Below, piece by piece: positions 5,667 through 27,985 of a stretch of 35,003 nt of DNA. Under the pieces are notes generated by a model. It was not told where the DNA came from. It saw only the letters and a program-made list of their open reading frames with translations, and did not search any database. Position 1 is the stretch's first letter; every line of letters begins with the position of its first letter. The translations under genes and the position numbers were made by a program. This DNA is from Candidatus Harrisonbacteria bacterium (lineage in GTDB: Bacteria > Patescibacteriota > Minisyncoccia > UBA6257 > 1-14-0-10-40-38): positions 119,736-154,738 of the forward strand of contig JAHFLD010000003.1 of the NCBI GenBank assembly GCA_023245035.1, read 5' to 3'.

Positions 5667-5738
5667 GCGCCCTTAGCTCAGTGGTAGAGCGTTTCATTGA
5701 CATTGAAAAGGTCGGAGGTTCGATCCCTCCAGGGCGCA
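5667..5738 (+). tRNA. tRNA-Val(GAC)
   Basis: GCGCCCT...AGGGCGC-A acceptor; anticodon stem TTTCA-TTGACAT-TGAAA; T-arm GGAGGTTCGATCCCTCC; full CCA not encoded (CCT). Confidence 0.93.
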
Positions 5739-5749
5739 CCTAGATTATA

Positions 5750-5770: not shown

Positions 5771-5779
5771 AGTCTTATA

Positions 5780-5866
5780 CTGGAGGGATCGAACAGTGGA
5801 GGGGGTCGAGGACCGCGTTTGGTCTCCCGTGTTGGAGATTATCCAGAACCATCGGTTCTGAAAAGA
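5780..5866 (+). other. tRNA-associated structured element, copy A
   Basis: CTGGAGGGATCGAAC (5780-5794) is the exact reverse complement of tRNA-Val 5718-5732; then AGTGGAGGGGGTCG, imperfect hairpin GGACC..GGTCTCC and perfect hairpin CAGAACC-ATC-GGTTCTG; aligns with copy B. Confidence 0.65.
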
Positions 5867-26979: not shown

Positions 26980-26987
26980 GTGTTTCT

Positions 26988-27013
26988 AGCCTCGTACTTT
27001 ACGGGGCTTTTTT
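26988..27013 (+). terminator. Rho-independent terminator
   Basis: AGCCTCGT / ACGGGGCT + T-run. Confidence 0.65.
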
Positions 27014-27046
27014 ATATGCTGATCAACTTCTTCGGCAAATTAAATT

Positions 27047-27087
27047 TGGTGGACCTAGCCAGAATTGAACTGGCGACTCCTCGTTGC
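27047..27087 (-). pseudogene. Orphan tRNA 3' half (T-arm, acceptor 3' strand, encoded CCA), Ala-like
   Basis: Minus strand GCAACGAGGAGTC-GCCAGTTCAATTCTGGC-TAGGTCC-A-CCA; no matching 5' half found. Confidence 0.7.
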
Positions 27088-27121
27088 CCCGATGGACTTT
27101 GGTGGGCTAACACTGTTTATG

Positions 27122-27193
27122 TGGACCAAGGGAGGATTGAACTCCCGACCTCCTCATTGCAAATGAGGCGCTCTACCACTGAGCTATTGGCCC
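27122..27193 (-). tRNA. tRNA-Ala(TGC)
   Basis: GGGCCAA-TA-GCTCAGTGGTAGAGC, anticodon stem CCTCA-TTTGCAA-TGAGG, T-arm GGGAGTTCAATCCTCCC, TTGGTCC-A; G3:U70; CCA not fully encoded. Confidence 0.94.
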
Positions 27194-27330
27194 ACCAAAG
27201 TCATACGGGATTGTGTTTTGTGACTTCGCTGCGCTTCAGATAAAACGGGAACAAACGAGGCGTAATCGATTTTTACAGTATCAAAATTCGCGCACAGGCG
27301 CAATTTTTTGGTTTGTGATAGAATCGGCTT

Positions 27331-27778: not shown

Positions 27779-27798
27779 TGGTGTCCCCGCGAGGAATC
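27779..27798 (-). pseudogene. Displaced tRNA-Arg 3' end with encoded CCA
   Basis: Minus strand GATTCCTCGCGGGGACACCA; 17/18 match to the 3' end of tRNA-Arg(CCT) (27913-27930). Confidence 0.7.
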
Positions 27799-27896
27799 TC
27801 ACGCGCTTTGCTTTTAGAAACCGACGGTTTCTAATCTCTTCCTGAACGGGAAACCGCAGGCGGTTTCCCGACCCCTTCCACTGTTCGATTCCTCGC
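27789..27896 (-). other. tRNA-associated structured element, copy B
   Basis: Minus strand GCGAGGAATCGAACAGTGGAAGGGGTC-GGGAAACCGCCTGCGGTTTCCC-...-TTAGAAACC-GTC-GGTTTCTAA-...-GATTCCTCGC; ends are a 10-bp inverted repeat; first 14 nt are the exact reverse complement of the tRNA-Arg T-arm. Confidence 0.7.
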
Positions 27897-27913
27897 AAGA
27901 AATTTACTATTTG

Positions 27914-27985
27914 TGCCCCCGCGAGGAATCGAACCTCGATTTTTTCCTTAGGACGGAATTGCTCTATCCATTGAGCTACAGGGGC
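27914..27985 (-). tRNA. tRNA-Arg(CCT)
   Basis: GCCCCTG-TA-GCTCAATGGATAGAGC, anticodon loop GTCCTAA, T-arm CGAGGTTCGATTCCTCG, CGGGGGC-A; CCA not encoded. Confidence 0.93.

Follow-up and report, generated by a model that had tools for sequence, protein, structure and literature searches.

In the window, the 35,003-nucleotide stretch of Candidatus Harrisonbacteria DNA analysed here, a complete tRNA-Ala(TGC) gene lies between the two halves of an older, broken tRNA-Ala(TGC) gene. The older gene was probably cut in its anticodon loop, at 35^36, by a double-hairpin homing-type element which carried a full replacement of the same isoacceptor. The same arrangement recurs in other Patescibacteria, in several copies together with a small GIY-YIG nuclease ORF. 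For these double-hairpin GIY-YIG elements as a whole we lean towards the view that they are natural home-and-rescue parasites, whose re-invasions would build Russian dolls of tRNA genes and swap host tRNA genes for foreign ones.

Anatomy of the tRNA-Ala(TGC) locus

The source genome (G000, 716 kb, 99% complete) contains a single tRNA-Ala(TGC) as far as could be found, and both ARAGORN and Rfam place it at 27193-27121 on the minus strand. Beyond it lies a tRNA 3' half, CAACGAGGAGTCGCCAGTTCAATTCTGGCTAGGTCCACCA, at 27086-27047 (minus strand), which an earlier note on this DNA had described as an orphan situated 72 bp past the complete gene. The half itself is real. Its T-stem is intact (GCCAG/CTGGC, compared to GGGAG/CTCCC in the complete gene), it retains T70 and an encoded CCA, and the GGGCCTA strand required for its acceptor stem is gone from the locus, all as claimed. 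It is also, as claimed, not a decayed copy of the neighbouring tRNA-Ala. A match to tRNA-Ala(CGC) of the same genome, including flank (82% over 45 bp, E 1.3e-6), shows that the resemblance is not due to chance. The spacing was misjudged: the spacer is 34 nt (27120-27087), and it is the far end of the half that lies about 72-74 away. Nor is the half an orphan: an outer tRNA-Ala(TGC) was split at 35^36, the half is its 3' exon, and the 5' relic lies upstream at 27282-27252. At the half, ARAGORN and Rfam called no second tRNA gene, and a split or permuted tRNA finds no support at a locus with a complete tRNA-Ala(TGC) between the halves.

The 5' relic reads ...AAATCGATTACGCCTCGTTTG on the minus strand. 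By sequence score alone it is within the background for a 35-kb window, and it was identified because of its position, its pairing and the pattern seen across the order. The two strands of the outer anticodon stem, CCTCG in the relic and CGAGG in the 3' half, pair with each other, and the outer anticodon is TGC, the same as that of the inner gene. The order along the locus is CCTCGTTTG (27260-27252), TTCCCG..., the complete tRNA-Ala, ...CGGGG, CAACGAGG and the rest of the 3' half; the 5' exon is directly against the insert, as in the other nested loci. A 12-mer of the 5' exon, ACGCCTCGTTTG, is found exactly in the tRNA-Ala(TGC) of another genome (G001).

The double-hairpin layout of the insert is partly decayed in this copy (Table 1). 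The left strand of hairpin B is homologous to GATAACTTTGGT in L185 and G059. At hairpin A, the site of the GIY-YIG ORF in other copies, no ORF was found; the window copy has lost it. The RNA of exons plus insert folds better than 200 shuffled sequences (z = -4.1), and in the predicted fold hairpin B competes with the acceptor stem of the inner tRNA. On the question of whether the inner tRNA is foreign, inner and outer tRNA-Ala differ, with identities to relatives that do not separate cleanly. An ORF on the plus strand (26980-27243), with 'DLARIELATP' and 'RIELPTSS' in its translation, is the antisense of tRNA-Ala pieces and very likely spurious.

Table 1. Features of the tRNA-Ala and T-arm-associated loci of the window and of the other nested loci of the same genome (TAE = T-arm-associated element)
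Feature	Position	Strand	Basis or remark
Decayed 5' exon, outer tRNA-Ala(TGC)	27252..27282	-	D-arm remnant, CCTCG, TTTG; ends at position 35
Insert, 165 nt, in anticodon loop of outer tRNA-Ala (35^36)	27087..27251	-	ends TTCCCG...CGGGG
Hairpin A remnant (GTTTT...AAAAC)	27215..27246	-	comparison with L184, L193, L198, L262
Hairpin B left strand GACTTTGGTGGGC	27190..27202	-	overlaps first bases of inner tRNA
Complete inner ('rescue') tRNA-Ala(TGC)	27121..27193	-	ARAGORN, Rfam
Hairpin B right strand GCCCACCAAAGTC	27095..27107	-	inverted repeat with GACTTTGGTGGGC around complete tRNA
Insert end CATCGGGG	27087-27094	-	directly after hairpin B right strand
3' exon, outer tRNA-Ala(TGC)	27047..27086	-	CAACGAGG, T-arm, TAGGTCC, A, CCA; orphan half of the earlier note
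tRNA-Arg(CCT), TAE host	27913..27985	-	ARAGORN
TAE core behind tRNA-Arg(CCT)	27811..27892	-	model match 80.2 bits; antisense T-arm, two conserved hairpins
Second copy of tRNA-Arg 3' end with CCA, closing Arg TAE	27779..27799	-	
Whole Arg TAE region	27779-27898	-	
TAE core behind tRNA-Val(GAC) (5667-5740)	5785..5865	+	model match 79.0 bits; element region 5779-5865
tRNA-Gln(CTG) and GIY-YIG ORF in D-loop of outer tRNA-Gln	L053 780-1245	-	contig C4
tRNA-Thr(GGT) inside broken tRNA-Thr	L058 4155-4645	+	contig C5
tRNA-Lys(CTT), two-level Russian doll	L039 590-1015	-	contig C3

Nested tRNA genes and a separate Arg/Val family

A DNA search of 61 genomes showed that segments matching the half belong to tRNA-Ala genes elsewhere, and in G017 an outer tRNA-Ala is split at TTTG|CAA around a complete tRNA-Ala. 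The junction pattern CCTCRTTTGTYCC was then scanned in 244 genomes of the order, giving 17 matches compared to about 7 for the reversed control pattern. In six of the 17, the window's own included, a complete tRNA-Ala(TGC) of matching orientation comes next, the others being in G017, G176, G048, G228 and G243. With a stricter pattern and 84,980 species there were 19 matches; at nine of them, all from Parcubacteria, a nested tRNA-Ala(TGC) follows. The metagenome-assembled genomes concerned are named Kaiserbacteria (two), Staskawiczbacteria, Portnoybacteria, Wildermuthbacteria, Taylorbacteria and GW2011_GWB1_42_6, and the Wolfebacteria and Harrisonbacteria matches are the same sequences as G048 and G243. 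As these two belong to the order of the source genome, the latter falls in the Parcubacteria group of Patescibacteria. A tenth match (L197), filed as a Nanoarchaeota archaeon, repeats the G176 nest as far as the contig end and is probably mis-binned.

Insertion at 35^36 of tRNA-Ala was found in at least 13 loci, and in most relatives tRNA-Ala(TGC) is uninterrupted. The nested layout with ends TCCC...GGGA and no target duplication is present at at least 12 Patescibacteria loci besides the window; the ends are strictly TCCC/GGGA in 14 of the 20 loci where both were determined. Most copies have the architecture TCCC-GAT..ATC-GAGGATCCTC-GAT..ATC-GGGA, ie two adjacent hairpins, the sequences being nearly all metagenome assemblies and the element classes delimited by eye and with small alignments. 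When the insert was removed in silico, a tRNA with the inner anticodon was restored in 8 of 13 outer genes, no target duplication being left. The joined exons fail in the window, L174, L184 and L192, where the outer gene has decayed, and in G228, where the anticodon has a point change. Wherever the outer anticodon can be read the inner tRNA carries the same one, with G228 as the exception.

A degenerate linker-motif scan of the order gave two matches, the motif being too strict, and the Ala junction was absent from the viral contigs searched. Orthology around htrA, followed in 30 loci, revealed no clear-cut empty site, and only in the source genome and G243 did a nested tRNA-Ala lie upstream of htrA. 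The flank after the CCA that is common to G007 and G005 was discarded as a nest-specific mark, as it runs into a shared downstream region in both. The tRNA-Ala loci L185 (Staskawiczbacteria) and L193 (Wildermuthbacteria) look doubly nested; in L185 the middle tRNA copy also has a double hairpin without cargo in its D-loop. A short palindrome near CCTGCCTGCCGGCAGGCAGG was seen in D-loops and T-loops of dead outer tRNAs (L175, L177, L216, L226 and others), and in G243 a tRNA-Arg(CCT) is nested in the D-loop of another tRNA-Arg(CCT) with no ORF (L232 767-997).

Within the source genome four nested loci (Ala, Gln, Thr and Lys) were found among about 48 tRNA genes. Both GIY-YIG ORFs found in that genome adjoin tRNAs, Gln(CTG) and Thr(GGT). 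At the Thr locus the ORF is between the outer 5' piece and the complete tRNA, and a hairpin is inserted in the T-loop of the outer 3' piece. The Lys locus has the order 5' half, L, 5' half, L, complete tRNA, R, 3' half, R, 3' half. Re-invasion of the rescue gene by the element would give this layout, and nested insertion explains it directly; a copy artefact is disfavoured because the two R copies, and the outermost 3' half, carry substitutions. The Lys doll shows that a rescue copy can itself be hit again.

The earlier note had linked the Ala half to features at tRNA-Arg and tRNA-Val and proposed recurrent 3'-end exchange. Recurrent exchange at tRNA genes of this genome is borne out. Exchange of 3' ends suits the Arg/Val elements, in which a structured element lies between two copies of a tRNA 3' end. 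It does not apply to the Ala locus, where the whole gene gave way to a complete tRNA inserted into the old anticodon loop and the half is the displaced 3' exon. The link itself was dropped, as the antisense T-arm, the two-hairpin core and the duplicated 3' end are all absent at the Ala locus. The Arg/Val T-arm-associated elements are a different and widespread family. Behind a tRNA they consist of the antisense of that tRNA's T-loop and T-stem, a two-hairpin core and, mostly, a repeat of the tRNA 3' end, which is clear at the Arg element and was not seen at the Val element. Model matches number 11 in the source genome and occur in 23 of 61 genomes of the order, with up to 12 copies per genome; with a stricter cut-off they were found in 12 of 287 genomes across the phylum. 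A same-strand tRNA ends within 260 nt upstream in 67 of 81 matches. Within this set of 67, 57% can pair with their own tRNA over at least 11 nt (2% with other tRNAs) and 70% repeat its 3' end over at least 13 nt (0.3% with other tRNAs). Rfam holds no such family, and the core was absent from the viral contigs searched.

GIY-YIG ORFs and their linkage to tRNA genes

The inserts of L184, L186 and L193 encode a GIY-YIG protein of 81-86 aa with a homing-type nuclease domain (Pfam PF01541, E about 1e-16). In all three the ORF is at the tip of the first hairpin and the tRNA at the tip of the second, with a linker resembling GAGGATCCTC between them. The same layout recurs at the tRNA-Ala(CGC) loci of G145 and G059, with a GIY-YIG ORF and an inner tRNA-Ala(CGC), and their dead outer genes have acquired cargo-free double hairpins in the D-loop or T-loop.

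Homologues of the GIY-YIG protein were found in 63 of 81 genomes. Among the 30 best loci, 17 by our own count adjoin a tRNA or tRNA piece (Ala, Cys, Glu, Gln, Lys, Asn, Val and Ser); other relatives are away from tRNAs. Where a GIY-YIG ORF lies 100-420 nt upstream of a tRNA, a 5' fragment of the same tRNA is found upstream in 12 of 25 cases, compared to 7 of 149 for other tRNAs. In a tree of 35 of the proteins there is a clade of the Cys-linked ones (100/99) and a second of the main Ala-linked ones (84/89), each drawn from several host families, and the tRNA label changes 4 times on the tree compared to 8.9 times when shuffled.

Whole-gene rescue is not universal, since Cys and some Glu, Ser and Lys loci have a 5' fragment and no 3' exon was found in them. 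L206, L215, L209, L213 and L219 consist of a 5' tRNA fragment, a GIY-YIG ORF and a complete tRNA, no 3' exon having been found, and are possibly a variant which brings only a new 5' part. In L202, L216 and L226 the first 10-15 nt of the tRNA also belong to the ORF, and the 5' end of the tRNA thus encodes the last residues of the protein. At L201 and L203 the GIY-YIG ORFs are in double hairpins away from any tRNA, near protein genes or between them. GIY-YIG ORFs were also seen just downstream of two Arg/Val-type elements (L103 and L109), outside the element itself, and these were left out of the counts.

Proposed mechanism, alternatives and known systems

Complete elements have the ends TCCC...GGGA; the tip of hairpin A holds a GIY-YIG ORF and that of hairpin B a complete tRNA of the same isoacceptor as the broken gene. 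From these arrangements we infer the following cycle. The nuclease would cut an uninterrupted tRNA gene in a loop, and repair would copy the element into the cut gene, ie homing. The interrupted gene would be dead, and the cell would live because the element supplies the tRNA, which may be transcribed from the outer gene's promoter and freed by normal tRNA processing. Later the outer halves would decay and gather more hairpin insertions, and the ORF would often be lost. What is left in the window would then be an inner tRNA, remnants of the hairpins, a 3' exon and a decayed 5' exon.

The palindromes might instead have been placed in loops by transposition, with a different enzyme at work and the tRNA and GIY-YIG ORF as captured passengers. 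We regard this as unlikely, though it has points in its favour: dead outer tRNAs have cargo-free double hairpins with the same ends in a D-loop or T-loop (L184, L185, L198 and G059), similar elements flank the GIY-YIG ORFs outside tRNAs at L201 and L203, and insertions in CPR rRNA genes cluster at the tops or bases of stem-loops (PMC11270868). Against it, the anticodon of the inner tRNA is that of the broken gene wherever this is readable, the point change in G228 apart, and the nuclease clades track the target tRNA. Splicing of a functional outer tRNA, with the inner tRNA as an intronic passenger, is very improbable. Insertion in the anticodon loop is shared with many tRNA introns and the joined exons form canonical tRNAs in 8 of 13 loci, yet the joined exons fail in the window, L174, L184 and L192 and the anticodon is changed in G228. 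Insertions are also found in D-loops and T-loops, the inner tRNA is always intact, and Rfam scans detected no group I or group II intron in the window or the nested loci, tRNA being the sole family matched in the window.

Duplicated tRNA 3' ends downstream of a tRNA are typical attR remnants, and the half could on that ground be read as a scar that an integrase-type element left, in the manner of classical tRNA att sites. A scar of that kind is hard to reconcile with a break at the anticodon and both halves around a complete tRNA, or with a 165-nt insert that holds no integrase or ORF and a crossover without a repeat, and we give it scant credence. Least credible is tandem duplication and decay of neighbouring tRNA-Ala genes; the half does resemble another tRNA-Ala of its own genome, but duplication cannot yield the order 5' exon, complete gene, 3' exon, and it leaves the shared breakpoints, the insert ends and the nuclease ORF of other species unexplained.

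If the home-and-rescue reading is true, a selfish nuclease can persist in a single-copy RNA gene that is essential, and do so with no splicing, since it brings with it a copy of the gene that it destroys; the logic of engineered home-and-rescue drives then occurs naturally. Puzzling tRNA fragments in Patescibacteria would be explained, a route for horizontal replacement of tRNA genes would exist, and a likely role could be given to part of the large set of small GIY-YIG proteins in CPR bacteria. It would also follow that tRNA annotation in Patescibacteria genomes overlooks broken outer genes, and that the nuclease of each element should cut its own host tRNA gene.

Group I introns in bacterial tRNA genes also interrupt anticodon loops and are often linked to homing nucleases. 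Self-splicing restores the gene in their case, whereas no intron core was found here and a spare tRNA would take the place of splicing. A search of freely accessible journal articles returned no report of complete tRNAs nested in tRNAs. Among the closest known systems are mobile ORFs of fungal mitochondria that bring a gene end with them (Allomyces atp6; Glomus atp6, atp9, cox2 and nad3; PMC3630166). There, as here, an endonuclease ORF (GIY-YIG in Glomus atp9) enters an essential gene together with a foreign replacement part, and the native part is displaced downstream. The fungal ORFs bring only a C-terminal coding end, whereas the elements described here place a complete tRNA inside a broken one, are bacterial, lie between two hairpins and can nest repeatedly. 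Fungal mtDNA also has double-hairpin elements (Paquin et al. 2000), in which two adjacent hairpins lie within genes with no target duplication. As described in PMC2800124 these are hairpins only, whereas a nuclease ORF and a tRNA occupy the hairpin tips here. Insertions in CPR rRNA genes that encode GIY-YIG proteins share the nuclease superfamily and the host radiation; they are reported to be neither group I nor group II introns and to lie mostly at stem-loop tops or bases. They differ in being in rRNA, with no rescue copy, and the paper makes no mention of tRNA or of a hairpin architecture (PMC11270868). The engineered home-and-rescue drive HomeR also puts a nuclease element, with a working copy of the gene, into an essential gene (PMC7968924). 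HomeR is synthetic, whereas the elements here are natural, and at the Lys locus the rescue copy has itself been re-invaded.
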